From NCBI RefSeq assembly GCF_002979915.1, contig NZ_PCQA01000006.1, forward strand, positions 62,001-126,000: 64,000 nt of DNA, in the 5' to 3' direction. The notes under the pieces were generated by a model. The model saw only the letters and a list, made by a program, of their open reading frames with translations, was not told where the DNA came from and did not search any database. Below are positions 26,087 through 43,568 of the stretch, piece after piece. How positions within the stretch are numbered: position 1 is the first letter of the stretch; each line of letters opens with the position of its first letter. This stretch comes from Arthrobacter sp. MYb213 (GTDB lineage Bacteria > Actinomycetota > Actinomycetes > Actinomycetales > Micrococcaceae). The position numbers and the translations under genes were made by a program.

Positions 26087-26157
26087 GATTGTTCTCCTGA
26101 ATATCTGTGACGAGCCACCCGCCGCTTCGTGGACGGACACACTCTTTTGGGTAGTGG

Positions 26158-26718
26158 TTAGAAGAAGGTGCTTAGGTTCTTTGCCTGGAGTACATTTGCG
26201 TCAAAAAGTAGCTCGCGGCGAGCCACGCCAAAACTGCCGTCTTCCCGCAACCTGATAGTGTCCGTGCGGCCGCCTGCATAGATATCTGTTTCGGTCTGAA
26301 GCCGGTTGCGATATACCAAGAACGCACAACGCACGCTTAGCTCGGTTTTGCTCACCCAATGGGCTGTTACATTTGAGATCAGGTGACGAGTACGCGAAGG
26401 TGGATCTTCGGCCCACGCCATACCCGAGTCATACCGGCGAATTCGCCAAGCCAATGACTCCTTGGTTTCGTCAAAGTACGCCGCTTCACCTTCACGACCA
26501 ATAGACAGAGCAGCCTGTCTACGCAACCTGTTGGTGCGTAGCGGTGCAAAATAGAACAGGTCTTCTTCAAAGATTTCTAGCCAGTCGGCAAAACGACCAT
26601 CGTCCAACAGCTCTGCCTCGCGGAAGTAAAACTGGGCGATACGGTAAGACAATTCGGAATCGACAAGTTGGCCTGCCAGCTCAAATTCTTTGCTATCGCT
26701 AGTTGCATCCTGTGTCAT
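26158..26718 (-). CDS. hcaF: Aromatic-ring-hydroxylating dioxygenase beta subunit
   Basis: Small structural subunit of the alpha3beta3 oxygenase, 186 residues. Family features: YRIAQFYFREAELLDDGRFADWLEIFEEDLFYFAP at residues about 25-60, and TRHLISNVTAHWV, both standard in the NTF2-like beta subunit. It carries no metal site. It is separated from the alpha subunit by the ferredoxin and reductase genes, an order alpha-ferredoxin-reductase-beta that differs from the E. coli hcaEFCBD order. Confidence 0.9.
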   Translation of the reverse strand: MTQDATSDSKEFELAGQLVDSELSYRIAQFYFREAELLDDGRFADWLEIFEEDLFYFAPLRTNRLRRQAALSIGREGEAAYFDETKESLAWRIRRYDSGMAWAEDPPSRTRHLISNVTAHWVSKTELSVRCAFLVYRNRLQTETDIYAGGRTDTIRLREDGSFGVARRELLFDANVLQAKNLSTFF

Positions 26719-26747
26719 GAACTTTTCCTCGTTCCTTCTCGGTAGCC

Positions 26748-27962: not shown

Positions 27963-27998
27963 GATTTTCCTGTCCGTATAAGTTTTTGTGCGTGCCGG

Positions 27999-28346
27999 TT
28001 AGGCGTCAGCGTTAGCTGCAACATTCGGGTAAAGCACCAAGCCGTCATCGGTAACCTCAACCTTGTGGGTACGCGCGGCGATGGTCGCTGGCATGCAAAG
28101 CGCGGTGCCTGCCTTGAGGCAGAACTTTGCCGAGTGCACCGGACATTCAACTTCGGTACCTTCAATCCAGCCATCAGCTAGCGAAGCTTCCTCGTGGGTG
28201 CAGGTGTCATCGAGTGCATAGAAGTTACCGTCTTCTGCGTGGAAGACGGCAATGTCGTTACCGGTGCCGTTCTCATCGCCCGGAATAACCTTTGCTTCGC
28301 CTTCATCGATGTCATCAATGGATCCGATGTTCAATGAGTTGCTCAT
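27999..28346 (-). CDS. hcaC: Rieske-type ferredoxin of the ring dioxygenase
   Basis: 115-residue soluble [2Fe-2S] electron carrier. Ligands are in DTCTHEEASL (CxH) and VECPVHSAKF (CxxH), the spacing of dioxygenase Rieske ferredoxins (HcaC, BphF). It overlaps the alpha subunit gene by 4 nt and is followed by its reductase. Very similar to the ferredoxin at 59983-60300 through the cluster region. Confidence 0.93.
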   Translation of the reverse strand: MSNSLNIGSIDDIDEGEAKVIPGDENGTGNDIAVFHAEDGNFYALDDTCTHEEASLADGWIEGTEVECPVHSAKFCLKAGTALCMPATIAARTHKVEVTDDGLVLYPNVAANADA

Positions 28347-29701
28347 GCTTCTTCCTTCTTTTCATGCCATGCAGGGGTGTTCATCAATTTTGACCAGTGC
28401 TTATAGAACGAGCGTCCGGCAGCATCTGAATACAATTCGCTGGTCTTTCCCGGATACGTTCCGTCTTCCTTCTCCGAGCCAATACCCATCTGGAAGTTCA
28501 GCGGCACCTGGTTCGTGACAAAACCACGGGAAATTGCCTGAATCTCAGACCAGTTTTCTCCGTCATCAGCTTCGAAGATGCCCGAAGGACCAAAGGTTCG
28601 CAGGTTGTAAAGACGCTGTGCGTCCTTTACGTCATCAGGCATCGACTTATCAACCAATACCCACGCCCAGACCTCGATCTTGTCCGGTCCCTTGGGGTGC
28701 CAAACGCGGATGGAACCGTTAACTGGAAGGTAGGAGAAGTTCGGGAAGACCGTGGCATGACCGGTAGTCATGGGGCCTTCGACTGCTGCGTCGCCAAGGC
28801 GTTCACGCAACATCTCATAGTCGTAGTATTCGTGGACTGGTTTAGCATCAAAGCGTGACTTCGGGTGGGTCGGAAAACCTGCACCGTGACCGTTTTCGCT
28901 GACAAATTGACGTCCCGGGGTGGCAACAATTTCCGGCTTTGGTCCACGCCCAGTCGGGGACAGCACCATCAGTGCCGATGCATGAGACATATTCACGTGG
29001 TACCAGTCGGTAGCGAACTGCTCTGCGGCGAGCTTCCAGTTACCTTCCAATTCCCATTTCATCACGCCACCCATAACCTCGGTGCCCTCAGGATCTCGAT
29101 CCAACATGGCATCCATGTAGTAGCGCATATCGCCAAGTGTCTCTTCTAGAGGTTCGGCGGCATGATCCCAGTTGCCAAAGATGAGTCCCTTATATATTTG
29201 AACATTTGGAACTTCAATCAGACTCCACTTATTCCGGTCGAAGTCTTCCGGATACGCCTGCTCGTTGGGGACACTCTTCAACGCACCTGCTAGGTCAAAG
29301 GACCAACCGTGGTACGTGCAAGTGAACATTTTGGTGGCGCCCGCGTCGGCACGGCACAGACGCACGCCCCTGTGACGGCAGGAGTTCAGGTAAGCGCGGA
29401 TCTTCTTGGTCTTATCCATGGTGACAATGATGGGATCTTCGCCCATGAACGTCGTGAAGAAATCTCCGGGCTTTTTGAATTGGCTGGTGTGCGCCAAGAA
29501 TAGCCAGCTTCGAGCAAAGACGCGTCGCTGCTCCTGCCCATAGATCGTATGGTCGGTGTAGATTGAACGATCGATCAGACCGCCCTCAGAATCGACTAGG
29601 TTACTGACATCGATATTGCGGGTTAGCTCTGCTGGTCGATCCATGCGGCCAATTGAAGCGTTTGCCTCTGGTTGAGAGGAACAATTATCAGCGGTGCTCA
29701 T
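28343..29701 (-). CDS. hcaE: Aromatic-ring-hydroxylating dioxygenase alpha subunit
   Basis: Catalytic subunit, 452 residues, the length of HcaE. It adds both atoms of O2 to an aromatic ring, giving a cis-dihydrodiol. Rieske ligands C108, H110 (SCRHRG) and C128, H131 (CTYHGW) are intact; the mononuclear iron site has D232, H235 and H240 in TDWYHVNMSH. First gene of the operon; a copy of the 19-bp repeat lies about 185 bp upstream. The adjacent mhp genes make phenylpropionate/cinnamate the best-supported substrate class, but benzoate- or biphenyl-like substrates are possible. Confidence 0.9.
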   Translation of the reverse strand: MSTADNCSSQPEANASIGRMDRPAELTRNIDVSNLVDSEGGLIDRSIYTDHTIYGQEQRRVFARSWLFLAHTSQFKKPGDFFTTFMGEDPIIVTMDKTKKIRAYLNSCRHRGVRLCRADAGATKMFTCTYHGWSFDLAGALKSVPNEQAYPEDFDRNKWSLIEVPNVQIYKGLIFGNWDHAAEPLEETLGDMRYYMDAMLDRDPEGTEVMGGVMKWELEGNWKLAAEQFATDWYHVNMSHASALMVLSPTGRGPKPEIVATPGRQFVSENGHGAGFPTHPKSRFDAKPVHEYYDYEMLRERLGDAAVEGPMTTGHATVFPNFSYLPVNGSIRVWHPKGPDKIEVWAWVLVDKSMPDDVKDAQRLYNLRTFGPSGIFEADDGENWSEIQAISRGFVTNQVPLNFQMGIGSEKEDGTYPGKTSELYSDAAGRSFYKHWSKLMNTPAWHEKKEEA

Positions 29702-29885
29702 CTGCGTACCGTCCTTGCTCGGTTTTGGTGCCGCCAGTTACCGGCGACCTTGCTTAGTAACCATTTATCCACGTACGTAATGCAAAACACCAGCCACTGT
29801 TCCAAACCATAAGACCGGGCAGGATGTCAAGAACCGAATCTCGGATTATTTACTCATTTCTGCTTCTCTACACCGCTAATCACGA

Positions 29886-29904
29886 TGTTCCGCCTGGTGG
29901 CACG
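29886..29904. promoter_or_regulatory. Degenerate copy of the 19-bp catabolic operator (site E)
   Basis: TGTTCC-GCCTGGT-GGCACG, one mismatch in each half relative to CGTTCC-N7-GGAACG with the same spacing. It lies in the divergent region between the dioxygenase operon (start 29701) and the HSD10-like gene (start 29946). The weakest of the copies. Confidence 0.45.
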
Positions 29905-29945
29905 AAGTAGATTAACCGCAGCTTCACTTATGTACCGTAAGCAAA

Positions 29946-30728
29946 ATGACTGACTCACTAATCGAAAATTTAGGTACTTGGCAGGACGCGGGCGTGCTGG
30001 TTCTCGGCGGAACCTCCGGGCTCGGCGAAGCAACCGCGAGGGAATTCGCACGAGCCGGTGCAATAGTTACCGTCGCTGGCCGCAACAAAATAGCCGGAGA
30101 AAAAATTGCCGAATCAATTGAAGGCCACTTTTGTACCGTTGATGTCACGGCGCCAGAATCAATTCAGGCAGCCCTCGAGAAGTCGGCCACCGCCCCGCGG
30201 GGTCTGCGTGCAGTGGTCAATGCTGCGGGTAGCGCAATCGTTGAAAAGACACTCCATCGAGGAGCTCCACACCAGTTGGACTCGTTCTTAGGTCAGATTC
30301 AGACCAATCTCGTGGGTTCGTTCAATGTGCTCCGGCTGGCAGCACAAGCCATGGCAGAAAATGAGTCTGAGGAAGCACTTGGCCGAGGTGTGATCGTCTT
30401 GACCAGCTCTGTTGCCGGGTTTGAAGCACAGCGAGGCCAAGTCGCTTATGCAGCGGCTAAAGGTGGAATCAACTCCATGATCCTGCCAGCAGCACGTGAT
30501 CTCGCGCGGGATAAGATCAGAGTTTTCGGCGTTGCACCAGGCGTCTTTGATACACCATTTATGGATGTCCTTTCGGAGGATGCTCGCAATGCCGTTGGCA
30601 AGTCAGTGCCTCATCCAAGTCGGCTAGGTAAAGCAACCGAATTTTCGCACCTATTAGTCTCACTTGCTACTAATCCGATGTTTAACGGTGAAGTTGTGCG
30701 TCTGGACGGCGCGCTTCGGCTGGCTTAA
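29946..30728 (+). CDS. SDR, 3-hydroxyacyl-CoA dehydrogenase type II (HSD10)-like
   Basis: NAD(H)-dependent short-chain dehydrogenase, 260 residues. Cofactor loop GGTSGLGEATAREFA, catalytic Ser in LTSSVAG and YAAAK. The C-terminal third, with VAPGVFDTPFMDVL, VPHPSRLG and NGEVVRLDGALRL, closely follows HSD17B10/type II 3-hydroxyacyl-CoA dehydrogenases, not cis-diol dehydrogenases. With the CoA ligase and hotdog thioesterase nearby it suggests CoA-dependent side-chain processing. Divergent from the dioxygenase operon, with site E between. Confidence 0.85.
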   Translation: MTDSLIENLGTWQDAGVLVLGGTSGLGEATAREFARAGAIVTVAGRNKIAGEKIAESIEGHFCTVDVTAPESIQAALEKSATAPRGLRAVVNAAGSAIVEKTLHRGAPHQLDSFLGQIQTNLVGSFNVLRLAAQAMAENESEEALGRGVIVLTSSVAGFEAQRGQVAYAAAKGGINSMILPAARDLARDKIRVFGVAPGVFDTPFMDVLSEDARNAVGKSVPHPSRLGKATEFSHLLVSLATNPMFNGEVVRLDGALRLA

Positions 30729-30801
30729 AAAGCAAAAATAACTCGTCCATACAGTTTTTTGACACTTAGCCTCAACCGAAATTGATGGTATTGCAGCAGA
30801 A

Positions 30802-30820
30802 CGTTCCGATGTACGGAACG
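30802..30820. promoter_or_regulatory. 19-bp catabolic operator, site A (before the MHS transporter)
   Basis: CGTTCCG-ATGTA-CGGAACG, a perfect inverted repeat with 7-bp arms, 116 bp before the transporter start. An extra half-like AGAACG (30798-30803) sits one 17-bp period before its right arm. Same element as sites B, C and D. Confidence 0.75.
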
Positions 30821-30935
30821 ACGTTTAGCAAGATCTGAGTAATTCAACTCACACTATTTGAAGCGCCATAGTCTTGCTAGCCAATCGGCTCACGCGCATC
30901 CCGTCTTCACCCATTCACCACACTCGGAGCACGCA

Positions 30936-32300
30936 ATGGATCAAGCACCCGCCTCGGCTCAACAGCCTAAATCATCTAAGGAAACCAAACGGGCACTCGT
31001 GTCCAGCTTCCTTGGATCCACCGTCGAATACTACGATTTCCTGCTTTATGGAGCCGCAGCAGGTCTAGTATTTCCACACCTCTTCTTCTCGGATGAGATG
31101 GACCCAACCTTGGGCATGACCTTGTCCTTTGTTATCTTGTTGGCCGGCTATGTCACGCGTCCTATCGGTGGCATCCTCTTCGGTCACTTCGGGGACCGCT
31201 TCGGTCGCAAAAACATGTTGTTCATAACGCTGATGATGATGGGCGTTGTTTCTGTCTGCATCGGCTTGATGCCTGGCTACGCCACGATTGGTGTAGCGGC
31301 TCCTTTGATTCTTGTGCTCCTGCGTGTAGTCCAGGGACTTGCCGTCGGCGGCGAATGGGCGGGGGCCACATTGATGGCCGCCGAACACGTCCAAGAAAAG
31401 AACCGAGGACTCGCTGCTTCGATCGCCGTCACTGGCGGTCCAACCGGCTCGGTACTCGCTACTTTGATGCTCGGTTTGTTCGCTGGCCTGCCACAGGATC
31501 AGTTCCTCGCTTGGGGCTGGCGCATCCCGTTCTTGCTCTCGGCAGCTTTGGTAGTTATCGGTCTGTACATGCGATACCGCGTTACCGAATCGCCTGACTT
31601 CGTCGCAGCTCAAGCGAAGGGCGAAGTGCACACAGGTGTGCCAATCCTGCGCGTACTGACCAAATACCCGTTGTCCTCGCTCTACGGAATCCTCGCGGCC
31701 GCTGGCCCGTTGTTCATGCAGGCGCTGTTGGCCATCTTCATGGTCCCTTACGTTGCAGAGACTGGCGTTGTCACTCGTCAAGAAGCGCTGATGATGCTTA
31801 CAGTTTCTTCCTTCTTGCATATCTTCGCGATTCCATTCTTTGCTATGCTTTCAGACCGTTATGGACGTCGCCCTGTCATGTTGGTCGGTGCAGGCATTTC
31901 CATAGCGTTGGTCTTCCCCATGTTTGCACTCTTCAACTCCGGTAATTTCTGGTTGATTGCGCTAGCCTTCCTGGTTGGAAATCCAATCATCCAAGCTTCG
32001 ATGTATGGACCGATCGGTGCTTTCTTGGCCGAGAAGTTCGAGACGCAAGATCGCTACACCGGAGTTTCGCTGACCTTCCAGCTTGGTTCACTCGTCGGCG
32101 CCGGTACCGCACCGTTGATGGCTACCTGGCTGATCGGGCTCGACAACGGTGGCGGAACGAACAATATCGCTTGGTACTTCATCTTGTTGATCGTGCTCGC
32201 CGGACTTGCGGTACTGCTGTCCAAGGAGACTCGCGGACGTGCGGAGCGGACCGCTTCGCGTGCCGACGAATCCATCGACGATCAAGTTCTAGGCCGCTAG
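30936..32300 (+). CDS. MFS transporter, metabolite:H+ symporter (MHS) family
   Basis: Proton-coupled uptake of an organic acid, 454 residues from the chosen ATG, which has CGGAG 6 nt upstream; a frame from 30858 adds 26 unlikely residues. MHS signatures: SSFLGSTVEYYDFLLYG at the first helix, GGILFGHFGDRFGRKNML between helices 2 and 3, and RVVQGLAVGGEWAGA. Twelve membrane segments expected. Position inside the catabolic island and its own operator copy make it the likely phenylpropionate/hydroxyphenylpropionate importer. Confidence 0.88.
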   Translation: MDQAPASAQQPKSSKETKRALVSSFLGSTVEYYDFLLYGAAAGLVFPHLFFSDEMDPTLGMTLSFVILLAGYVTRPIGGILFGHFGDRFGRKNMLFITLMMMGVVSVCIGLMPGYATIGVAAPLILVLLRVVQGLAVGGEWAGATLMAAEHVQEKNRGLAASIAVTGGPTGSVLATLMLGLFAGLPQDQFLAWGWRIPFLLSAALVVIGLYMRYRVTESPDFVAAQAKGEVHTGVPILRVLTKYPLSSLYGILAAAGPLFMQALLAIFMVPYVAETGVVTRQEALMMLTVSSFLHIFAIPFFAMLSDRYGRRPVMLVGAGISIALVFPMFALFNSGNFWLIALAFLVGNPIIQASMYGPIGAFLAEKFETQDRYTGVSLTFQLGSLVGAGTAPLMATWLIGLDNGGGTNNIAWYFILLIVLAGLAVLLSKETRGRAERTASRADESIDDQVLGR

Positions 32301-32342
32301 GTAAGCCGTAGTTCGTAACACGGTAGCCAAAGACCGTTTTGC

Positions 32343-32377
32343 CATTGGAGCGCGCTGTGCCACAGGGCGCTCCAATG
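32343..32377. terminator. Hairpin after the MHS transporter gene
   Basis: Inverted repeat CATTGGAGCGC (32343-32353) and GCGCTCCAATG (32367-32377) with a smaller paired core CTGTG/CAG inside. It lies about 40 nt after the transporter stop. Only a weak T-rich tail follows. Confidence 0.65.
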
Positions 32378-32496
32378 TTGTGTGCGAGCACTTGACATCG
32401 CTGGGCGTTTCATCGTTTGAAACCCAAGGTTCTAGTTCTCGTCCGTGGAGCATAGAGTGATTTTCAAGACCGATTTCATCATTTTTAGGAGGACCA

Positions 32497-32946
32497 ATGG
32501 CGATTCCAGCCAATGTTGAAGATTTAGACCAGTTAGTCAGCAAGTTCCTTTCACGTTTGGGCTTCGATGACATAGTGACCACGTTGGGGCTTGTACCGCA
32601 TGCTGCCGATGGCGAAACCATTAGCCTGCGCATGCCATTGCAAGATTCCATCGCCCAGGCCAACGGCATGTACTCGGCAGCAGCGCTCTTTGGTGCGGCC
32701 GATATTGCCGGCACCTTCCTCGCCATGTCGACTTACGCCGATTCGGGCCAGTTTCCACTGGCTGTGCAATCGAGTCAGAACTATATGAGCAATTCCAAAA
32801 CCGAGTACGTCGTGGCTACCGCAAAGATTCTTCGTGGCGGTGGCTCTGTGGCCGTCGCCGAGGTTAGCGTCGCAGACGCCGATGGCAAAGCCCTGATGCA
32901 TGCGACTTTCACCTACGTCATCACGGAACGCAAGCTAGGAAAATAG
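32497..32946 (+). CDS. Hotdog-fold thioesterase-like protein
   Basis: 149 residues, ATG with AGGAGG 4 nt upstream. The layout (central MYSAAALFGAADIAGTFLAM helix followed by strands SQNYMSNSKTEYVVATAKIL) fits the PaaI/DUF4442 hotdog group of acyl-CoA thioesterases; the usual HGG is replaced by the NGMYSAA segment, as in DUF4442 members. It sits between the transporter and mhpC, with operator site B just after it, so it is probably part of the same pathway, perhaps recycling CoA from aromatic thioesters. That role is inference. Confidence 0.78.
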   Translation: MAIPANVEDLDQLVSKFLSRLGFDDIVTTLGLVPHAADGETISLRMPLQDSIAQANGMYSAAALFGAADIAGTFLAMSTYADSGQFPLAVQSSQNYMSNSKTEYVVATAKILRGGGSVAVAEVSVADADGKALMHATFTYVITERKLGK

Positions 32947-32953
32947 CGATCCG

Positions 32954-32972
32954 CGTTCCATCTGATGGAACG
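32954..32972. promoter_or_regulatory. 19-bp catabolic operator, site B (before mhpC)
   Basis: CGTTCCAT-CTG-ATGGAACG, a perfect inverted repeat with 8-bp arms, 107 bp before the mhpC start and 8 bp after the thioesterase stop. The most symmetric copy of the element. Confidence 0.78.
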
Positions 32973-33078
32973 AGTAGGAGCATTAGCTACGCATAGTTCC
33001 TATCGTTAAGTTTAGGATCCATGTCGCCTTGCGGATCAGCAATGAATGACATTCGTGACCAAAATGAAGGAGTACCCC

Positions 33079-33933
33079 ATGACGCAAACAGCAATCCCGG
33101 AATACACCACCGACAAGTTCTTTGGTCTCGAAGACAAATGGTTGCAGACCGCCGACGGCGAGCTAACTCACTACCATGAGATGGGCGAAGGCACCCCGAT
33201 TCTTTTCCTCCACGGTTCCGGAACGGGTGTGACAGCTGCAGCTAACTGGTGGCTCAATCTTCCTCAGTTATCCGAATCCGGTCGCTGCATCGCCATCGAT
33301 TCTGTCGGTTACGGCCAGACCATCGCTGCTGAGAATATCCAGTACGGCATCAAGGAATGGGTCCGTCACGCGGTTCGCACACTCGACGCGCTGGGTATTG
33401 AAAAGACCTGGATCGTCGGCAACTCGCTCGGTGGCTGGCTCGCATTCCAGTTCGCCATTGACTACCCAGAGCGCCTACTCGGTGTAATTTCCATGGGTAC
33501 CGGTGGAGCAAAGCTCACCGGCGCGCTGAAGGGCCACTCAAATCCAACGCTAACCGAAGAAGGCATTCGGAAGACCTTGGAAATGTTCGTTGTCGACAAG
33601 TCCTTGGTGACTGACGAACTTGTCTCCCTGCGTTACCAGTCCGCGTTGAATGACACCGCCAGCGACCGTTTGGCCGAGGTTGTCACTGCCCGTGACCGTG
33701 ACCGCACCGAGCTTCCTTTGGACTTTGATGTGCTGGCCAAGCTGGACATCCCGGTCTTGCTGATTCACGGTGTGCAGGACGTAGTGATCCCAGTGTCGCG
33801 TACTTGGGAACTACTAAATCTGATCCCTAACGCGGATGCCCACATCTTCAGCCAGTGTGGCCACTGGTCACAGGTTGAGCGTGCCGAAGAATTTAATCAG
33901 GTAGTTTCTTCGTACTTGAAGCGCCACGCCTAA
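33079..33933 (+). CDS. mhpC: 2-Hydroxy-6-oxonona-2,4-dienedioate hydrolase MhpC
   Basis: Alpha/beta hydrolase that splits the C-C bond of the ring-cleavage product made by MhpB, giving 2-hydroxypenta-2,4-dienoate and succinate (or fumarate from cinnamates). 284 residues from ATG 33079 (GGAG 6 nt upstream). Catalytic triad: S116 in GNSLGGW, D234 in HGVQDVVIP, H262 in CGHWSQ; oxyanion-hole segment HGSGTG. It has its own operator and a terminator, so it is a single-gene unit apart from mhpBDFE. Confidence 0.92.
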   Translation: MTQTAIPEYTTDKFFGLEDKWLQTADGELTHYHEMGEGTPILFLHGSGTGVTAAANWWLNLPQLSESGRCIAIDSVGYGQTIAAENIQYGIKEWVRHAVRTLDALGIEKTWIVGNSLGGWLAFQFAIDYPERLLGVISMGTGGAKLTGALKGHSNPTLTEEGIRKTLEMFVVDKSLVTDELVSLRYQSALNDTASDRLAEVVTARDRDRTELPLDFDVLAKLDIPVLLIHGVQDVVIPVSRTWELLNLIPNADAHIFSQCGHWSQVERAEEFNQVVSSYLKRHA

Positions 33934-33941
33934 ACACGAAT

Positions 33942-33995
33942 GACAACACGGCGGTGGTTGAAAAGCTCAGTGCTTTTTCAACCACCGCCGTTGTC
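33942..33995 (+). terminator. Terminator after mhpC
   Basis: Long hairpin: GACAAC...GGCGGTGGTTGAAAA (33942-33964) pairs with TTTTCAACCACCGCC...GTTGTC (33974-33995), with a 2-nt irregularity. It separates mhpC from the mhpBDFE promoter. Confidence 0.75.
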
Positions 33996-34049
33996 ATCTG
34001 CACAGATAGATCCTCGAATTCCATAATTCACCGCGAAAGAATTGCGTAT

Positions 34050-34068
34050 TGTTCCGACTGATGGAACG
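34050..34068. promoter_or_regulatory. 19-bp catabolic operator, site C (before mhpB)
   Basis: TGTTCC-GACTGAT-GGAACG, 91 bp before the mhpB start. Same 6-7-6 layout as sites A, B and D, and the spacer GACTGAT is close to ATCTGAT of site B. Confidence 0.75.
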
Positions 34069-34158
34069 CAAACTAGCACCGCAGTTACTAAGCGAGTGAA
34101 ATGGATAACAAGCAATAAGTGATTCGTTTCAGTCTGCCTCTAAGTCAAGGAGAACATC

Positions 34159-35097
34159 ATGCCCCAGGCATTGTTATGTATGTCCCACAGCCCGCTGTTG
34201 GAACACACCAATCCGCCAGCAGAGGTCAAAGCAGCAGTTGAGGCAGCCTTCGAAAAGGCTCGCGCCTTTGTCAAGGATTTCGATCCAGACCTGATCATTA
34301 ATTTTGGCCCAGATCACTACAACGGTTTCTTCTACGACCTCATGCCACCATTCTGCATTGGCTATGAAGCCTTGGGCACCGGCGACTACGACTCGTGGGA
34401 AGGGCCTATCAACGTCCCTACCTCCATCGCCGAAGAGCTGGCTCAGTACGTTATTGATCAGGACATCGATACCGCGATTAGCCGGAAGATGGAAGTTGAC
34501 CACGGTGCGGTCCAGCCGATGGAAATCATGTATGGGAATCTGGCCGACAAGCCAATGATCCCGATCTTCATCAACTCCGTTGCTCGCCCTTTCTCTAAGG
34601 TGGCACGAGTACGCAAGTTTGGTCAGGCGGTCGGAGAGTTCTTCAAGGACTCCGATAAGAAAGTTCTGTTTATCGGTTCCGGTGGCCTTTCCCACGATCC
34701 CCCGGTACCGCAGATTGCGACGGCCACCGAAGAACAGCGTGCTTTCCTCACCAACGGTCGTAAGCCAACACCTGAAGCACGGGCTGCCCGTCAACAGCGC
34801 ACCATCGATACGGCGCTGGCCTTCGCTAAGGGAGAGGCCAACATCATGGAATTGAACCCCGAATGGGATCAGGCATTCCTCGAAATTTGTAAGTCTGGAG
34901 ACGTCACCGGGTTTGACGCCTTGAATCCGGACGAAATGGACGCAGTAGCAGGACACTCCTCGCATGAGGTACGCACTTGGGTAGCAGCTTACTCGGCACT
35001 CAAGGCCTGCGGTGACTATGAAGTCACCTACGAGTTCTACAAGCCAATCAAAGAATACATAGCCGGTTTCGGCGTAACGACAGCGGTGATCAAATAA
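34159..35097 (+). CDS. mhpB: 3-(2,3-Dihydroxyphenyl)propionate 1,2-dioxygenase MhpB
   Basis: Extradiol ring-cleavage dioxygenase of the LigB superfamily; opens 2,3-dihydroxyphenylpropionate (and 2,3-dihydroxycinnamate) next to the diol with Fe(II) and O2. 312 residues, the same as the E. coli enzyme. The catalytic histidines described for MhpB are at the matching positions, H115 in VDHGAVQP and H179 in GGLSHDPP; N-terminal MSHSPLL is the metal-site loop. First gene of mhpB-D-F-E, overlapping mhpD. Confidence 0.95.
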   Translation: MPQALLCMSHSPLLEHTNPPAEVKAAVEAAFEKARAFVKDFDPDLIINFGPDHYNGFFYDLMPPFCIGYEALGTGDYDSWEGPINVPTSIAEELAQYVIDQDIDTAISRKMEVDHGAVQPMEIMYGNLADKPMIPIFINSVARPFSKVARVRKFGQAVGEFFKDSDKKVLFIGSGGLSHDPPVPQIATATEEQRAFLTNGRKPTPEARAARQQRTIDTALAFAKGEANIMELNPEWDQAFLEICKSGDVTGFDALNPDEMDAVAGHSSHEVRTWVAAYSALKACGDYEVTYEFYKPIKEYIAGFGVTTAVIK

Positions 35098-35939
35098 TGA
35101 CTCAGGCCCCACAATCAGGCGCTGCGGAATGGGCAAGCAACCACTCCGACGAAGCTCCACGAAGCGAACTCATCAAGCGTTTGGCCGACGAACTGCTTGT
35201 CGCCACCGAAACATTAGTTCCAATTCCGCCACTGCGTGACCGCGTGTTGAACATGACCGTGGAAGACGCCTACCAAATACAGGATGCGCAGTTGCAGCAT
35301 CATGTGGCCAAGGGTCGTGTTCTTGCTGGACGCAAAGTCGGCCTGACCTCCTTGGCTATGCAGAAGCAGCTCGGTGTTGATTCACCGGACTTCGGTTACT
35401 TTTTCGCCGACATGGTCCACCACGAAGACGCACAGATTCCCGCGGATTCGTTCATCTCCCCCAAGGTAGAACCAGAATTCGGTTTCATCCTGAAGGAAAC
35501 CTTGACCGGTCCCGGTGTCACCCGTGAGCAAGCGGCGGCTGCCATCGGTGAGGTCTACGCAGCAATTGAAATCATCGACTCCCGAGTCGAGGACTGGAAT
35601 ATCAAGCTGGTAGACACCGTGGCAGATAACGCTTCCTGCGGTGCTATCGCGGTGGGCACCACCCCACTTGATGTCCGCATCGAAGACTTGGCCGAGGTTG
35701 AATGCTCGCTCATTATCGATGGCGAAAAGGTAGCTACCGGCAAGGGCAGCGCCGTGATGAATGATCCGGTTGCCCCACTTGCTTGGCTAGCCAACGTGCT
35801 CGGTGAGCAGGGCGTCGCCCTTGAAGCCGGACAGTTGATCCTGCCTGGTTCCTTCACAGGCGCTATGCCGGTGGTCAAGGACTCGACCGCTACCGCAGAT
35901 TTTGGTGAGCTCGGTTCGCTGAAGATCAATTTCTCTTAG
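35097..35939 (+). CDS. mhpD: 2-Keto-4-pentenoate (2-hydroxypentadienoate) hydratase MhpD
   Basis: Adds water to 2-hydroxypenta-2,4-dienoate giving 4-hydroxy-2-oxovalerate. 280 residues, about 10 longer than E. coli MhpD because of an N-terminal extension. Family motifs: AGRKVGLTSLAMQKQLGV, the acidic metal site in PEFGFIL and EVYAAIEIIDSR, and GSAVMNDPVAPLAWLAN. The start overlaps the mhpB stop (TAATGA), so translation is coupled. Confidence 0.94.
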   Translation: MTQAPQSGAAEWASNHSDEAPRSELIKRLADELLVATETLVPIPPLRDRVLNMTVEDAYQIQDAQLQHHVAKGRVLAGRKVGLTSLAMQKQLGVDSPDFGYFFADMVHHEDAQIPADSFISPKVEPEFGFILKETLTGPGVTREQAAAAIGEVYAAIEIIDSRVEDWNIKLVDTVADNASCGAIAVGTTPLDVRIEDLAEVECSLIIDGEKVATGKGSAVMNDPVAPLAWLANVLGEQGVALEAGQLILPGSFTGAMPVVKDSTATADFGELGSLKINFS

Positions 35940-35995
35940 TAACGCCCCGCGTTACCCCATCACCCATTTTGCTCTGTAGCTAAGGAAGCTCTCCC

Positions 35996-36931
35996 ATGGC
36001 CAAGAAAACAGCCGCCATTGTCGGTTCCGGGAACATCGGTTCTGATCTGATGTTCAAAATTATGCGCCGCTCGACCAACGTCGAGGTCAAATACATGATT
36101 GGTGTTGACCCTGCCTCGGATGGTCTAGCTCGCGCAGCCCGTCTGGGCATCACCACCTCTGCAGAAGGTGTTGACTGGTTACTCGCTCAGGAAGAACTGC
36201 CTGACTTTGTTTTTGAATGCACCTCGGCCAAAGCACACGAGGCCAATGCGCCGAAGTACAAGGCCGCAGGCATTCACGCTATTGATCTCACCCCAGCAGC
36301 CGTTGGACCGTACCTGGCACCCGTAGTGAATCTGGATTCACTGACCGACACCATGAACGTCAACATGATCACCTGCGCCGGCCAGGCAACTACCCCAATC
36401 GTCGCCGCAGTTTCCTCGGTGGTTCCTGTTGAGTATGCAGAAATCGTTGCCTCAATCGCTTCGAAGTCTGCCGGCCCAGGCACCCGTGCCAACGTAGACG
36501 AGTTCACCGAGACCACCGCGAAGGCATTGGAAGTAGTTGGTGGAGTCAAGCGTGGCAAGGCAATTATCATCATCAACCCTGTCGAACCACCAATGATGAT
36601 GCGCAATACTATCTACGCGATGATTCCTGCCGAGGCAGCCGTTGCTGGCGAAACTCAGGATAAGATCCGTGCAGCCATCGACAAGGCCGCCGCCGATATC
36701 CGTGACTACGTCCCTGGTTATGAACTTCGCATGGAGCCACAGTTTGAGGAAGCTCGCGAAGACTGGGGTGGCTTTGGCCGCGTTGGCATCTGGGTCCAGG
36801 TCGCCGGTGCCGCCGACTACCTGCCAGAATACGCAGGCAACCTGGATATCATCACCGCCGCAGCTACCCGCACCGCGGATCTGCTCTCTGACAAGATCGA
36901 CGCTGCACGCACCGCCGCGTCGGTGAACTAA
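35996..36931 (+). CDS. mhpF: Acetaldehyde dehydrogenase (acylating) MhpF
   Basis: Converts acetaldehyde, NAD+ and CoA to acetyl-CoA; works in complex with MhpE. 311 residues. N-terminal Rossmann fold ([20 protein letters not shown]) and the catalytic C127 in [14 protein letters not shown]-terminal region [20 protein letters not shown] is typical. It follows mhpD by 56 nt and precedes the aldolase partner by 20 nt. Confidence 0.95.
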
Positions 36932-36951
36932 GAATTAGGGACACGCACATC

Positions 36952-37980
36952 ATGACTGCACCTATGGACACCACCTTTGATATTCGCCTGACAGACACCA
37001 CCTTGCGCGATGGTTCCCACGCGATGAGCCACAAATTCACCGAAGAACATGTGCGCTCGGTAGTACGCGCACTGGATGACTCACGTGTTGAGGTCATCGA
37101 GGTCACCCACGGCGACGGCTTGGGCGGCTCATCGTTCAACTACGGCTTCTCGCTGACCCCGGAACTGGACCTGATCAAGGCCGCGGTAGATGAAGCCAAG
37201 CAGGCAAAAATTGCTGTGCTGATGCTCCCAGGTTTGGGCACCATCCATGATCTGAATCAGGCTCACGAAGTTGGCGCATCGGTAGCTCGTATTGCCACAC
37301 ACTGCACCGAAGCAGACGTCTCGATCCAGCACTTCCAGCACGCCCGTAAGTTGGGTATGGAAACTGTGGGCTTCCTAATGCTCAGCCACCGTGTATCCCC
37401 TGAAGAATTGGCTAAGCAGGCACGCATCATGGCTGATGCCGGCTGCCAGTGCGTCTACGTCGTTGACTCAGCCGGCGCGCTGATCCTCGATGACGTTTCG
37501 GACCGTGTCTCGGCATTGGTTTCCGAGCTTGGAAATGATGCTCAGGTGGGCTTCCACGGTCACCAGAACATGAGCTTTGGTGTCGCGAACTCGGTGTTCG
37601 CCGTACGTGCCGGAGCCAAGCAGATCGATGGCACCCTGATGGCTTTGGGCGCCGGAGCAGGTAACTCCCCTACCGAGGTTCTTGCTGCAGCATTTGATCG
37701 TCTTGATATCAAAACCGGCGTGGACATCCAGGGTCTGATGGGTGCGGCCGAAGATATCGTGAAGCCATTTATCACCCGCATGCCCGTGATGGACCGTGCC
37801 TCAATCATGCAGGGTTACGCCGGCGTGTACTCCTCGTTCTTGATCCACGCTGAGCGTGCCGCCGAACGTTATGGAGTTCCTGCCTACAAGATTCTCGAAG
37901 AGGTCGGCAAGGCCGGCTATGTAGGCGGTCAGGAAGACATGATTGTCGATGTGGCGGTGCAGCTGGCAGCAGCTAAGTAA
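36952..37980 (+). CDS. mhpE: 4-Hydroxy-2-oxovalerate aldolase MhpE
   Basis: Cleaves 4-hydroxy-2-oxovalerate to pyruvate and acetaldehyde, passing the latter to MhpF through an internal channel. 342 residues. HMG-CoA-lyase-like barrel with D15 and R19 in [12 protein letters not shown]23, and the metal ligands H202 and H204 in [10 protein letters not shown]. Last gene of mhpBDFE, ending just before a hairpin. Confidence 0.95.
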
Positions 37981-37998
37981 GTATTTCAACAGTTCTTT

Positions 37999-38033
37999 GA
38001 ATGCCGGGGTGATCATCTGATCCCCTGGCATTC
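37999..38033 (+). terminator. Hairpin after mhpE
   Basis: GAATGCCGGGG...GATC pairs with GATC...CCCTGGCATTC with a single bulged T and a G-T pair; 18 nt after the mhpE stop. Weak T tail only. Confidence 0.65.
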
Positions 38034-38356
38034 ATGCGTTGTCCCTCATCCATTGCTCGATTCTGGCTGCCTTGGGTCGCATAGGTAAGCACTGGGCTAA
38101 GGATCAGCACGCATTACTGATGCCCAAATATCAGCTCAGCTCAGTTTTTCCACGCAAATTATAAGTATTTGCGACAGCAGAAGAGCCCTATGTTTCCACT
38201 GCGCAGTAACGGCGTTGCCCCGCGAACGTGATTGTTTGTGTGCACTTGTATCCGTAGCCGCCTGCCATGAGCCTTAGAATTTGGTGTTCTAGGCGTCTAA
38301 GCATCTTCTCAGCGAGGAGAGTTCGTACGCCACTGGTAAAAGCAGTTCAGACGGTT
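38034..38356. other. Intergenic stretch without a gene
   Basis: Lies between the mhpE hairpin and the end of the convergent MFS gene. No reading frame with coding character, no RNA gene and no clear repeat was seen. Confidence 0.5.
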
Positions 38357-39607
38357 CTACTGCTTATTCGCCATACCGGTTTGTGCTACTTCCGTTGGAT
38401 GTCCAGTGAGCGGTGAAAGATGCCGCTTAGAATTCAAGGCAATCACGACCAAACAAAGCAATGCCAGAACGGTGACAGTAATCAGCATCTCCATCAGTCC
38501 GAACCATTGGCCAAGATACGCAAGTAAAGTAGGCGCTAAGAATCCCGCATAGGCCAACATATAAAATTTGCCGGTCGCGGATCCAAGGCGCTGCGGAGTA
38601 CTCAACCGTTGTGTTTCGAGTAGTCCAGCAACCATCATTAGGCCGTACCCTCCTCCCAGCCAGCAACAAGCCAGTAGCGCAAGCCATGGTGTCTGGAATA
38701 AGCCACAGATCAAAGCCAACAACAATCCGGCAACGCTCAATCCCAGCGCAACCAGGATGGCGCGGGCCGAACGTGTTGAATCAAGTCGCCGAGCAATTGG
38801 TTGGACCGCAACTCCGCTACCCAAAGTCAGCGCGACGGCAACCGTTGAATAGATGAGCGCTTGCTCGCCGAGGTTGGCAAACAGGTTAGGAACTACCGCG
38901 AACCCGATAGTGCCGGCTCCGAAAACCCACGGAGCACTAGGGACGATAACTCTGCGAAAACGTCGCTGAGCTCCCTCATAGGCATACTGCTGTATCCGTG
39001 CCTCCGTGCTATTTCCAGCCAGCGCTTCAGGTTTGGTTCCAGGAACACGGAGCAAAAACAGCAACACAGGCAGGCAAAGCACGATATGTACCAGGTAGGG
39101 CAAAGTTGCCGGGAACGGAGCAAAGTTCGCAAGCATTCCGCTGGCTACGGGTCCCAAACAAAAACCTGCGGCGGTAAACAATGAAGCTCTACGCGCCCCA
39201 GAGCCATTCGAAACCGTGGGATTTGAACTGGAAGGCGATAGTTCTTTGATCCAACTCGTTCCCGCGGCCATCGCCGCTCCGGTGGCCACACCCGCTAGTA
39301 AACGACCTAGATAGATGGGTAAGGCCCAAAGCGCACCAAACATCATGGCAGCACTAGCCGCAATAGTTACCAGTAAGGCAACCACCGTGGTGCTTTTGCG
39401 CCCCATCCGGTCTGAAATTCTGCCACCAAGTAAAAGCGCTGGGATCAATCCGGCCACATAAATCCCCAGCATGGAGGTTACTTCTAGCTGTGAAAAACCA
39501 TAATCCTCACGGTAGAAGATCAGCATCGAAGCGAATTGATTGGCACCCCATCCCACAAGAGTCATTGCGATAGCAACGGGCGGCCACCATCGAGAACTGT
39601 CAGCCAC
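38357..39607 (-). CDS. MFS transporter (paralog of the one at 48455-49699)
   Basis: Twelve-helix major facilitator, 416 residues. N-terminal segment ALLLGGRISDRMGRKSTTVV is the standard loop between helices 2 and 3. It lies within the catabolic island, convergent with mhpE and divergent from the IclR regulator, and could export or import an aromatic intermediate. It shares clear similarity with the MFS at 48455-49699 (the GW-AN-Q start, the P-LLLGG loop, and a TSW segment after helix 4). A GGAACG half-site (39643-39648) precedes it without a second arm. Confidence 0.85.
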   Translation of the reverse strand: MADSSRWWPPVAIAMTLVGWGANQFASMLIFYREDYGFSQLEVTSMLGIYVAGLIPALLLGGRISDRMGRKSTTVVALLVTIAASAAMMFGALWALPIYLGRLLAGVATGAAMAAGTSWIKELSPSSSNPTVSNGSGARRASLFTAAGFCLGPVASGMLANFAPFPATLPYLVHIVLCLPVLLFLLRVPGTKPEALAGNSTEARIQQYAYEGAQRRFRRVIVPSAPWVFGAGTIGFAVVPNLFANLGEQALIYSTVAVALTLGSGVAVQPIARRLDSTRSARAILVALGLSVAGLLLALICGLFQTPWLALLACCWLGGGYGLMMVAGLLETQRLSTPQRLGSATGKFYMLAYAGFLAPTLLAYLGQWFGLMEMLITVTVLALLCLVVIALNSKRHLSPLTGHPTEVAQTGMANKQ

Positions 39608-40156
39608 TATTGGACTCCTTTATCGATTCGCGTGTCAGGAATGGAACGATCCTAACCATCTTCGATGATGAAGCACTTCAACTCCATAATTCGTCCCACT
39701 GTACGCAACACCAGCTCCATGTACTTCTCCACCGAAAGAACGGACACTGATCCCCAGTGAAGATTACATGCTCAAATTCTTCCACCGCGTCATCAGGGTG
39801 AAAACGAACGGAGGTGGTGCTCCCCAACAAGTAGGATGGAATGGATTTTTCCAACTTAGCAGGGCCCTGAAAGAGCTGTAGTGCTGCGCATCAGAGTCGA
39901 TTGCGGCTTTTGTGCCAGCAGGTCCCAGACCCGCGAAGAAAAGTTAGATATGTAATGGTGCGTATTCAGCTTATAGACGCTCTACATGCCACTACCGCTG
40001 AGCCTGTCTCCATGCTGAAGCCCAAGCTGTCGAATCACAGAAGTCTTAACTCGGCCTCTTGGTATCGGGACAAGGCGGCAATGATGATAGCTATTAAGTT
40101 TCGCTACGCGGAACACGTCTAAGCAAATAACGCACGCCTTATGGCACTATCTACAT
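39608..40156. other. Long divergent intergenic region
   Basis: 549 bp between the MFS and IclR genes. A 73-codon frame at 39901-40122 has no recognisable features and was not accepted. No complete 19-bp operator copy is present, only a GGAACG half-site at 39643-39648. The promoter of the regulator should be here; its ATG at 40157 has no ribosome site, so the message may be leaderless. Confidence 0.5.
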
Positions 40157-40858
40157 ATGAATGAGAGCGTTACTCCTAACTCCTCCCGAACTACGGGGTC
40201 CCAGACCCTTGCCCGTGGCCTGACAATTTTGCGTCAGGTGGTCGAAGCGCATGACGGATTGACCGCGACGGAGGTCGCGCAACATTCAAAGGTTCACCGC
40301 ACTGTTGCCTACCGAATTTTGAATACGCTCTGCGACGCTGAATTATTACACCGCGGAGAAGACAGCAGATACCGTGGGGCAGCCGGTTTACTATCCTTGG
40401 CCGCTGCCGGACACCAACATTTACGCAATGTCGCAACATCTCATCTACGTAGTGCCGCGGACTCCCTCGGCGTGACGGTTGCGTTGCTAGTACGCGAAGG
40501 CAATAGTGCGGTGTCGCTAGCGGTGGTCTCCCCGCGCGCGGGCACCTACCATGTTGCGTTCTCTGAAGGCTCGCAGCATCCGGTCACCAGTGGAGCGGCG
40601 GGATTAGCACTTTTGGCAGCAGAGCCAGCATCTGCCCAAGATACCGAACAGGTGCGTGCGGTGAGGGAACGAGGTTTCGCGCAGACCTTTGGAGAGGTGG
40701 AACCAAATATGTATGGCCTGGCAATCCCGCTTCCCGCAGCCGGATCGAGGTCCACCGCGTGCCTGAACGTCATCACCCTCCATGAGCAATCCGCAATCGA
40801 CTGCATTGAGCCGCTGAAATTAGTCGCTTCGCGTCTGCTCGATGACTTGAATACTTAG
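40157..40858 (+). CDS. IclR-family regulator, probable MhpR-type controller of the island
   Basis: 233 residues, on the short side for IclR proteins. N-terminal winged helix: ARGLTILRQVVEAHDGLTATEVAQHSKVHRTVAYRILNTL; the effector domain follows (TVALLVREGNSAVSLAVVSP, HPVTSGAAGLALLA). It directly precedes mhpA, in the place where mhpR stands in E. coli (there divergent). IclR proteins of aromatic pathways (MhpR, PcaR, PobR) usually activate in the presence of substrate. The 19-bp repeats before five units are its probable sites; that match is inference. Confidence 0.85.
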   Translation: MNESVTPNSSRTTGSQTLARGLTILRQVVEAHDGLTATEVAQHSKVHRTVAYRILNTLCDAELLHRGEDSRYRGAAGLLSLAAAGHQHLRNVATSHLRSAADSLGVTVALLVREGNSAVSLAVVSPRAGTYHVAFSEGSQHPVTSGAAGLALLAAEPASAQDTEQVRAVRERGFAQTFGEVEPNMYGLAIPLPAAGSRSTACLNVITLHEQSAIDCIEPLKLVASRLLDDLNT

Positions 40859-40867
40859 CTTGTCCAA

Positions 40868-40903
40868 CGTTCCTTTGTGCAAAACGTTCCGGCATGCAGA
40901 ACG
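40868..40903. promoter_or_regulatory. Tandem 19-bp operators before mhpA (site D and a weaker partner)
   Basis: CGTTCC-TTTGTGC-AAAACG (40868-40886) and CGTTCC-GGCATGC-AGAACG (40885-40903) share two bases, a 17-bp period. The second is the better inverted repeat. They lie about 103 bp before the mhpA start, downstream of the IclR gene. Confidence 0.7.
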
Positions 40904-41005
40904 CTCACTTTGATCCACGACACATCTCATGGTGTGATGAACCACAGGTTAGGTGCACATGTAATACACATATGTGCGTTATTTACACAAATAAGTGAGG
41001 GTTAG

Positions 41006-42736
41006 ATGTCTTCAATGACTACCAGCGAAGTCCTTATCGTCGGCGCAGGGCCAACAGGCCTAATGCTTGCCAACATCTTAGGGATGTATGGCCGCACGGT
41101 CACCGTCCTTGAAGCTCGCGACACCCTCATCGATTACCCACGCGGCGTGGGACTCGACGATGAGTCATTACGAACCATTCAGACAGTCGGGCTTGTAGAC
41201 GAGGTCCGCCCGCACACGACGCCGCAGCACATCATGCGTCTAGTCAATGGACGCGGCAAAACCATCTTGATCAATAATCCACAAACCGATGAATTCGGAT
41301 GGGAACGCAAGCACGGTTTCATCCAGCCCGAGGTTGACCGGGTACTCTACGATGGCCTTGCACGCTTCGATAATGTTCAGGTACTTTTTGGCCACGAAGT
41401 ACTCGACGTCACCGAAACTGCCGATTCCGTGACCACACGGGTCAAGGTCAGTGACAAAAACGGCGAAGAAACCGAGCGCACCTTCGAGGCAAAATACATC
41501 GTGGGTTGCGAAGGCGGCAAGTCCCCTACCCGCAAACGTTTGAACGTCAGTTTCGAAGGAGAATCCCCTTCCACCCGCTGGCTAGTAGTGGATGTCAACA
41601 ACGACCCACTGGGCACCCCGAATGTGTTCCTCGGCGCCGATCCCGTACGCCCGTATGTGTCCATCGGGCTACCCCACGCCGTACGCCGTTGGGAATTCAT
41701 GCTGCTCGATGGTGAAACCGAAGAAATGGCCACCGATCCAGAGTTCGTGAACCGCATGCTGGCAGATCACGTTCCTGACCCGACAAACCTCGAATACATT
41801 CGTCGCCGCGTATTTACTCACCACGCCCGCGTGGCAGGGAACTTCCGCAAGGGACGCCAACTTATCGCAGGCGACGCCGCACATCTAATGCCTGTATGGA
41901 TGGGCCAGGGATGGAATTCAGGCATGCGCGATGCAACAAACCTCGGATGGAAGCTCACCGCGATCCTCTCAGGACAAGCCGGGGATGAACTGCTGGACAC
42001 CTATACCTCCGAGCGTAAACAACACGCTAAGGCAATGGTGGATCTTTCATTGACCATGGGCAACGTCATTAAGATGACCAATCCAGCCGGAGTGATTCTG
42101 CGAGATACCGCGGCCAGCGTACTCAATCTTTTTCCCTCGGTTAAGAGCTACTTTGCAGATATGCGATTCAAACCAATGCCTCGTTACACCGTGGGCGTAT
42201 TAGCGGATCCCACTACTGGTCAGTCCGGCACCGCCAACGGAGTTTTGAGTAGCAAGCTCATCCCAGTGACCACGGCGAATTCCCGGGTCTCTCCGGTAGG
42301 CGTGCAGTTCATTCAGCCCGATGTACGTACCGATGAGCTGGGTGTCAGCAAACTCGATGACGTCATCGGTAACTGGTGGACACTCATCGTCTGGGGCAAC
42401 GATCCGCTAGACGTCCTTCCCGCCAAAACTATCAATGATTTGGAAGCGCTTGGCGCAAAGCTCGTTGCGGTGGTTCCAGAAACCCAATACAAGTGGGCCA
42501 AGCGCGATATGAGTCCGCAGACACTAGTAGTTTCTGATGTGACCGGACGGCTAAAGAAGTGGTTTGACGACCGTCCAACCCCAATGATTCTGTTACGCCC
42601 TGACCGATTTGTTGCCGGCGCGAGCCTGCACCAAGATGGGCCGCGCACCATTGATGCGGTGCTCAATTCAATGAGCTTTAACCGTGCGACAGCAACAACT
42701 GAACCCGAGCTAACCGCCCTGGACGCGCAACGTTAG
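41006..42736 (+). CDS. mhpA: 3-(3-Hydroxyphenyl)propionate hydroxylase MhpA
   Basis: FAD- and NADH-dependent monooxygenase making 2,3-dihydroxyphenylpropionate from the 3-hydroxy compound, feeding MhpB. 576 residues (E. coli about 554). FAD motif VLIVGAGPTGLMLANILG at the N-terminus, the PRGVGLDDESLRTIQ segment of the MhpA/PheA group, the GCEGGKSPTRK stretch (DG motif region) and LIAGDAAHLMPVWMGQG, the second FAD site. It is a separate unit with a tandem operator and its own terminator. Phenol or resorcinol hydroxylases are related alternatives. Confidence 0.92.
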   Translation: MSSMTTSEVLIVGAGPTGLMLANILGMYGRTVTVLEARDTLIDYPRGVGLDDESLRTIQTVGLVDEVRPHTTPQHIMRLVNGRGKTILINNPQTDEFGWERKHGFIQPEVDRVLYDGLARFDNVQVLFGHEVLDVTETADSVTTRVKVSDKNGEETERTFEAKYIVGCEGGKSPTRKRLNVSFEGESPSTRWLVVDVNNDPLGTPNVFLGADPVRPYVSIGLPHAVRRWEFMLLDGETEEMATDPEFVNRMLADHVPDPTNLEYIRRRVFTHHARVAGNFRKGRQLIAGDAAHLMPVWMGQGWNSGMRDATNLGWKLTAILSGQAGDELLDTYTSERKQHAKAMVDLSLTMGNVIKMTNPAGVILRDTAASVLNLFPSVKSYFADMRFKPMPRYTVGVLADPTTGQSGTANGVLSSKLIPVTTANSRVSPVGVQFIQPDVRTDELGVSKLDDVIGNWWTLIVWGNDPLDVLPAKTINDLEALGAKLVAVVPETQYKWAKRDMSPQTLVVSDVTGRLKKWFDDRPTPMILLRPDRFVAGASLHQDGPRTIDAVLNSMSFNRATATTEPELTALDAQR

Positions 42737-42815: not shown

Positions 42816-43568
42816 ATGCCCCACGCCCACTTCGACTCACAGATTTACTACGCGGTAGCCTCGCCTGAACAAGTACAGTTGGCGACCCAAAAATTTGGCG
42901 GCCCGGAGAAAATCCTCGGTACCGAAGCCAGCCGGGCCGAAGACTTTGTCCATGGGGAGGATCGCGAAGCGTTTATCGGTTCTCGAGCACTGTTACGGTT
43001 ATTGCTCTCCTACCTCACGCACGGAGAGCTTGATCAGGCCTCGAACGTAGAAATTTCGCGGCATTGCATCTCCTGCAATTCCAGCGACCATGGCAAACCA
43101 ACAACGCCGCAGCATGCGATCTCGTCCTCTAGAACTAGAGAACTAGTCATTGCTGCGGTGGCTCCTAAAGGCTTGCGTCTTGGCATTGATATTGAACGCG
43201 GAACCACGCTGAGTCCGGCGGGGGTCTTTCCCGGCTTTGACCAGCTCGCACTCACGTCTGATGAACTCAAACTGGTGCACCGGGACAAGAACCCAGACTA
43301 CATAAGGCTTTTGGCCTGGACCGCCAAAGAAGCGCTTCTCAAGGCGGATGGCGCAGGCTTAAGACGCGAGCCTTCCACCGTTCGGGTCCTCTCGACTTCG
43401 GTGACAAGAGCCGCCCGTCTCAATAAGTGGGCCACCCCGAGGCATTTGGCCGGATACAGCCTTCGCAGACTCCCGGTGACATCCACTCATGTAGCGACTC
43501 TTGCCGCTTCAAAGCCATTATCGGTTCAAGAACTCAGTACTCAGATTTTCAACGCAGCACTGAGTTGA
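42816..43568 (+). CDS. 4'-Phosphopantetheinyl transferase, Sfp type
   Basis: Transfers phosphopantetheine from CoA to carrier proteins. 250 residues. Core motifs: LGIDIE (D125, E127) and WTAKEALLKADG (W168, K171, E172, K175), the Mg2+/CoA site of Sfp-type enzymes. An upstream HCISCNSSDHGKP segment with paired Cys is standard in this subfamily. The conserved His usually seen in the middle strand (SHS) reads SSS here. No NRPS/PKS gene is in the window, so its target lies elsewhere. Confidence 0.85.
   Translation: MPHAHFDSQIYYAVASPEQVQLATQKFGGPEKILGTEASRAEDFVHGEDREAFIGSRALLRLLLSYLTHGELDQASNVEISRHCISCNSSDHGKPTTPQHAISSSRTRELVIAAVAPKGLRLGIDIERGTTLSPAGVFPGFDQLALTSDELKLVHRDKNPDYIRLLAWTAKEALLKADGAGLRREPSTVRVLSTSVTRAARLNKWATPRHLAGYSLRRLPVTSTHVATLAASKPLSVQELSTQIFNAALS

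Follow-up and report, generated by a model that had tools for sequence, protein, structure and literature searches.

A conserved operator in actinobacterial phenylpropionate gene clusters tracks one IclR-family regulator, and a second operator at mhpA tracks another

Which protein reads the 19-bp palindrome that recurs before the phenylpropionate genes of Arthrobacter sp. MYb213 (Micrococcaceae) is the question raised by a 64,000-nucleotide stretch of its genome (assembly GCF_002979915.1, contig NZ_PCQA01000006.1, positions 62,001 to 126,000), hereafter the window. The window carries hca-like dioxygenase genes, mhp ring-cleavage genes and two genes for IclR-family regulators, a full-length one that we call IclR2 and a short one beside mhpA that we call IclR1 (Table 1). 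A sequence-only reading of the same DNA had proposed that the palindrome, here operator B, is bound by the IclR protein encoded at 40157 (IclR1), which would join scattered catabolic units in one regulon. As a conserved operator shared by these units the regulon is strongly supported, but the binder assigned to it is probably wrong. We judge it likely that operator B is instead the site of IclR2, a conserved actinobacterial regulator that controls the hca-like dioxygenase and mhp ring-cleavage genes of phenylpropionate breakdown and probably acts as an activator, and that a separate inverted repeat at mhpA, operator A, serves IclR1 as a repressor site.

Loose matches to operator B occur at or near chance level. 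With up to three mismatches, 126 matches fall in the window, where shuffled sequence gives 102 on average, and genome-wide, with at most one mismatch, the motif form used in the first scans (yGTTCC-N7-GGAACG) falls at 45 places against 42 for a backward control, the refined pattern at 50 against 65; for this reason, we used only exact or matrix-scored matches. Exact copies behave differently from the loose ones, as just four matches of the yGTTCC-N7-GGAACG type exist in the 3.785-Mb genome and three of these lie within 3.3 kb in this cluster (30802-30820, 32954-32972 and 34050-34068). The fourth, an exact yGTTCC-N7-GGAACR at C12:24566, was put aside; it overlaps a reading frame predicted there and fails to match the refined consensus exactly. 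One mismatch to the early form is found at 29886-29904 and 40885-40903, and two at 40868-40886. Recalibrated on relatives, whose sites have G or T as fourth base, R at base 7 and Y at base 13, the consensus of the 19-bp palindrome becomes YGTKCCR-N5-YGGMACR, with six exact occurrences in the genome, all within hca/mhp modules: four here (29886, 30802, 32954 and 34050) and two on another contig, C14. Because relatives of these very sites had served to tune the consensus, a matrix was made from 63 distinct sites in 14 other genomes; it scores six window positions (21043, 29886, 30802, 32954, 34050 and 40885) at 16.4-22.4 bits, while the next-best position reaches 9.4 bits and the maximum over ten simulated 64-kb sequences is 14.4 bits. 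As an exact or matrix-scored signal, operator B thus exceeds chance, and it is common to many actinobacteria.

The repeated sites reported earlier are therefore real, and their exact copies are non-random and kept before the same genes in relatives, although several details of that description changed. The copy at 29886, described as degenerate, has the top score in the window, and the conserved site at 21043-21061 was missed altogether, as was the IclR2 gene. Distances of 91-116 bp to start codons hold if the MHS transporter gene starts at about 30936 and the mhpC-like gene at 33079. A second, tandem site at 40868, suggested earlier as a means of cooperative binding at mhpA, was rejected and such binding is not supported, since it scores 4.4 bits (noise) and the mhpA fragments of relatives have a single site; a match at 40097 before iclR1 (8.3 bits) was likewise put aside as noise. 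The half-operator before hcaE is decayed on one side in this genome, and fuller copies with one mismatch lie 107-108 bp before hcaE in four others (G061, G199, G210 and G246).

To see which regulator operator B accompanies, we compared 28 clusters; among the 395 genomes of the family, IclR1 was found in 25 (E cut-off 1e-28) and IclR2 in 15 (1e-60). Every mapped gene start was scored with a leave-genus-out matrix at a threshold of 12 bits. Operator B was present in all 16 clusters with IclR2 (the 15 genomes plus the module on C14) versus 2 of 12 without it (G065 and G183), and when fewer promoters were tested, operon-internal genes being excluded, in 15/16 versus 1/12. Fisher's test gives p of about 5e-6 at 12 bits and 3e-4 at 16 bits, with relatedness among the genomes ignored. 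The stretches with weak IclR1 homologues (G058, G088, G139, G168 and G256) and those of genomes with a 42%-identical mhpB, which stand outside the 28 clusters, contain no exact operator B.

The same comparison bears on the proposal that IclR1, alone or with IclR2, binds operator B and runs the regulon. Its gene adjoins mhpA, which bears the site, 11 of the 15 IclR2 genomes also have IclR1, and one genome (G065) combines IclR1 and operator B sites without IclR2. Against this, operator B occurs where IclR1 was not found, in G388 and G269 (both with IclR2), in the C14 module and in 48 site-bearing IclR2 loci of the wider survey described below, and at 12 bits it is missing from seven of the nine clusters that have IclR1 but not IclR2 (G013, G068, G277, G296, G298, G400 and G413; the exceptions are again G065 and G183). 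With IclR1 having a companion repeat of its own, operator A, we consider this proposal improbable. Comparison with IclR-bearing mhp clusters, which the sequence-only reading had pointed to, did find its operator conserved, but in step with IclR2, which is probably the binder.

A wider survey extends this association beyond the family. Species genomes were scanned with an IclR2 alignment, which gave 111 loci; the 80 best were kept (38-78% identity), and 48 of these contain 102 exact operator B sites, compared with 2, 0, 0, 2, 2 and 0 for the same half-sites at six wrong spacings and 1 and 1 for two reversed patterns. Outside the family lie 71 of the 80 loci, with 84 exact sites in 41 of them, and in another family there are two exact sites in G571 (IclR2 48% identical, with an hca cluster) and a single one in G560 (IclR2 52%). 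IclR1 scores no better than 45 bits in any of the 80 loci. No exact operator B was found in about 503 kb of control loci, the partly overlapping sets of which comprise 27 IclR loci, 15 loci with weak IclR1 homologues, eight distant mhpB loci, six IclR1 clusters without IclR2 and three mhp clusters with neither. Another regulator might be the binder, for example the XRE-cupin protein encoded at 21612-22181, whose gene adjoins IclR2 here and in several relatives and is itself preceded by operator B in G321 and G327. We rejected it, as searches with the XRE-cupin protein gave no match at E<=1e-15 for five of the eight IclR2 genomes compared and none above 150 bits in 29 of the 48 operator B-bearing IclR2 loci, and operator B fits the IclR operator class, leaving such a binder very unlikely indeed.

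How IclR2 might act is suggested by the position of its putative site. In 51 of 80 site-to-gene fragments, a set that leaves out G068 and includes related, non-independent sequences, a T[AG]NNNT hexamer resembling a -10 element begins 38 bp past the centre of operator B (32 fragments) or 39 bp past it (19), compared with at most nine at any one offset in shuffled fragments. Among 168 flanks from outside the family, the stricter TANNNT peaks at 37 bp with 10 cases against a mean of 0.41. Operator B would thus be placed about 50 bp before the predicted transcript start and directly upstream of the -35 element, a fixed position that suits an activator. In the window, the SDR start codon lies 51 bp past the operator B centre (50-51 bp in G061, G199, G210 and G246, but 77 bp in G017); its coincidence with the predicted transcript start suggests a leaderless message.

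IclR2 might instead bind operator B mainly as a repressor that is released by an inducer. IclR proteins comprise repressors, activators and dual regulators (PMC8222616), and operator B abuts the -35 region. Contact with RNA polymerase, however, requires a rigid spacing of the kind seen between operator B and the -10-like element over many promoters, and the positions of repressor sites generally vary. We regard repression through operator B as unlikely, if less so than the other two alternatives. Placed against the -35 element, IclR2 would most likely activate transcription when a pathway compound is present.

For IclR1, a different repeat stands out. The half-site TGTGCAAATAACG is common to the IclR1 clusters, and as an inverted repeat it forms operator A, which is found upstream of mhpA in 13 of 21 matches. 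The eight matches without it consist of five operon-internal genes, a partial mhpA (G013), a second piece in G065, and the mhpA of G388, a genome without IclR1. Where mhpA is internal to an operon, operator A precedes the first gene in five of six cases, the sixth being G416, which also lacks IclR1; operator A is thus found in neither of these two genomes, and in all 18 IclR1 clusters that have a full-length mhpA or an operon-head hydrolase. Elsewhere it is rare (mhpB 1/23, MHS 3/21, mhpC 0/17, hcaE 0/13 and dehydrogenase 0/12). Since 64 kb of simulated sequence yields 0-3 repeats of this kind, the evidence lies in position and conservation, not in number, and for the same reason the repeat that overlaps the iclR1 start codon (40120-40157), with a counterpart before iclR1 in only 4 of 20 genomes, is a weak indication of autoregulation. 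Overall, IclR1 more likely binds operator A than operator B. The location of operator A downstream of the promoter-like pair of mhpA suits a repressor, which IclR1 most likely would be; mhpA could then be turned on by IclR2, with IclR1 keeping it off as long as the substrate of mhpA itself is missing. Following mhpA on the same strand, a 4'-phosphopantetheinyl transferase-like gene was noted at 42816-43568.

Several observations weigh against this assignment of roles. Raising the cut-off to 16 bits reduces operator B to 14 of 16 clusters with IclR2, versus 2 of 12 without, and 32 of the 80 surveyed IclR2 loci have no exact site. As IclR2 and the hca genes tend to occur together, operator B could partly be associated with those genes rather than with the regulator: it is present in 36 of the 41 loci whose hcaE reaches 60% and in 12 of the 39 others. 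In flanks from outside the family, the looser T[AG]NNNT hexamer peaks at 52 bp (15 cases) rather than at 37 bp (12 cases). G183, with no IclR2 orthologue, has one operator B, scoring 16.8 bits, upstream of mhpD and next to a 40% homologue of IclR2. G065 has IclR1 and operator B before both mhpC and mhpA, without IclR2 (best match 29%). Its hcaE and hcaF exist only in pieces (one hcaE match, at distance 1791, is an artefact of a weak match) and mhpB has no match, which suggests a cluster that is apparently decaying but has kept IclR1, mhpA and mhpC with their operators (L085 and L138); however, both matched parts of its mhpA share one frame, which tells against decay, and the argument for it relies on the broken-up hca genes and the absence of an mhpB match. 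Finally, binding, activation, repression and the inducing compounds are all inferred here from sequence.

The genome itself contains a second module of the hca/mhp type with two exact operator B sites, on contig C14 (L128 and L129; about 4757-26724). It includes paralogues of mhpC (83%), IclR2 (66%) and the dehydrogenase (76%), together with an XRE-cupin paralogue, and IclR1 was not found in it. In three stretches its DNA is 80-87% identical to a locus of G388, another genus, an identity that suggests transfer between genera.

The assignment of genes to the pathway was checked against family models. Both regulators score above the IclR cut-offs (Table 1), with the C-terminal model matched in IclR1 only at 3-80 of its 174 positions. 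Scores also exceed the cut-offs for mhpB, for mhpA and, at 336.4 bits against 330, for the HcaB-type dihydrodiol dehydrogenase (NF004849). The window's hcaE reaches 455.1 bits, short of the 830 set for the HcaE equivalog NF042946, and is called hcaE-like on that account. Neither regulator falls into a more specific family tried: for PcaR/PcaU/PobR (TIGR02431, cut-off 284.75) IclR2 scores 143.2 and IclR1 69.7, and for the MhpR models (PRK09834, cut-offs 251-299) the best scores are 37.4 for IclR1 and 27.7 for IclR2.

Table 1. Coordinates of genes and operator sites in the window (paired scores are bits/cut-off)
Feature	Coordinates	Strand	Position or context	Score or basis
Zinc-binding dehydrogenase gene	19971-21005	-	under the 21043 site	
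Operator B	21043-21061		between dehydrogenase (-) and thioesterase (+) genes; same place in relatives	16.4 bits
Thioesterase gene	21142-21615	+	under the 21043 site	
XRE-cupin regulator gene	21612-22181	-		domains
IclR2 gene	22320-23108	+	full-length IclR-family regulator	PF01614 145.9/24; PF09339 49.8/22
hca-like operon (hcaE, hcaC, hcaD, hcaF, hcaB, AMP-forming ligase)	23658-29701	-		family matches
Half-operator	29798-29816		before hcaE; one half good, other decayed	-1.8 bits
Operator B	29886-29904		51 bp before SDR gene, 194 bp before hcaE	22.4 bits; exact refined match
SDR dehydrogenase gene	29946-30728	+	under the 29886 site	
Operator B	30802-30820		before MHS transporter gene; kept in relatives	22.3 bits; exact
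MHS-type transporter gene	30936-32300	+	start predicted, about 30936	TIGR00883 368.6 bits, below cut-off 443.45
Thioesterase gene	32497-32946		between MHS and mhpC-like genes	
Operator B	32954-32972		before mhpC-like gene; kept in relatives	20.7 bits; exact
mhpC-like hydrolase gene	33079-33933	+	start predicted	
Operator B	34050-34068		before mhpB-mhpD-mhpF-mhpE; kept in relatives	20.7 bits; exact
mhpB, mhpD, mhpF, mhpE	34159-37980	+		mhpB NF009910 471.1/291; Pfam domains for others
Possible second operator A	40120-40157		overlaps iclR1 start codon	19/26 letters
IclR1 gene	40157-40858	+	short IclR-family regulator, 233 aa	PF01614 35.5/24; PF09339 34.8/22
Operator B	40885-40903		before mhpA, directly upstream of promoter-like pair TTGATC (40910) / TGTGAT (40933); kept before mhpA	17.6 bits
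Operator A, inverted repeat GTGCA..AATACAC / GTGCGTTATTTACACA	40952-40989		downstream of mhpA promoter-like pair	19/26 half-site letters
mhpA	41006-42736	+	promoter bears both operators	NF004829 399.6/390 (subfamily)

In relation to known systems, operator B is of a known kind, lying in or next to a published IclR operator class, GTT-11-AAC, with consensus GTTYCRYW3RYGRAAC (Suvorova and Gelfand 2021, PMC8222616). It shares with that class the 17-bp palindrome, the GTTCC/GGAAC half-sites, their spacing and the inner R and Y. In the sites of the 14 genomes, GTTYC half-sites stand 7 bp apart with R/Y inner flanks, but G and T are about equally common at the fourth base, and the A/T-rich W3 core is not shared, positions 9-11 being mixed with C and G most frequent. 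The operator type is not new. In the main text of PMC8222616 neither Arthrobacter nor any word beginning with 'phenylpropionate' occurs. The regulon, taken earlier to be unreported-looking, was not found described in the literature that we searched; subscription papers and that supplement were out of reach, and 'unreported' is not established.

The regulator GenR of Corynebacterium glutamicum, with the operator ATTCC-N7(5)-GGAAT in the table of PMC8222616, is likewise an actinobacterial IclR protein that regulates the breakdown of an aromatic acid. Its operator shares the TTCC-N7-GGAA core with operator B, and the title of the paper cited for it there states both activation and repression; it differs in having A/T rather than GT/AC as outer bases and in serving the gentisate instead of the hca/mhp pathway. 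MhpR of E. coli, an IclR regulator of 3-(3-hydroxyphenyl)propionate genes with the operator GGTGCACCTGGTGCACA (same table), is unlike both window regulators, which are far below the cut-offs of MhpR-type models, and its operator is unlike operator B; the GTGCA...TGCAC ends of that operator nevertheless resemble one element of operator A, which would make IclR1 the nearer MhpR counterpart. PcaU and PobR of Acinetobacter, also of the IclR family, control aromatic acid genes and have palindromic operators, and PcaU needs an extra direct half-site (PMC8222616), none of which was noticed at operator B, where no systematic search for one was made.

The protein that regulates the hca dioxygenase genes in E. 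coli, HcaR, belongs to a different protein family, LysR. Operator B and IclR2 would together make a concrete, testable pair of operator and regulator for phenylpropionate catabolism in many actinobacterial genera, correcting which protein to purify, and operator B can guide searches for further members, the C14 module being one example. We lean slightly toward a broader view, in which one regulator, found across many genera of actinobacteria and not the same as MhpR, controls the phenylpropionate dioxygenase genes via a single operator at a fixed activator distance. In Glutamicibacter and its kin, on this view, mhpA alone would have a further, independent repressor gate in the form of a second IclR protein, and two members of the same family, with two operators flanking one promoter, would separate the phenylpropionate from the hydroxyphenylpropionate branch. 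If true, the mhpA promoter, flanked by two different IclR-type operators, would offer a compact example of separate branch switching.

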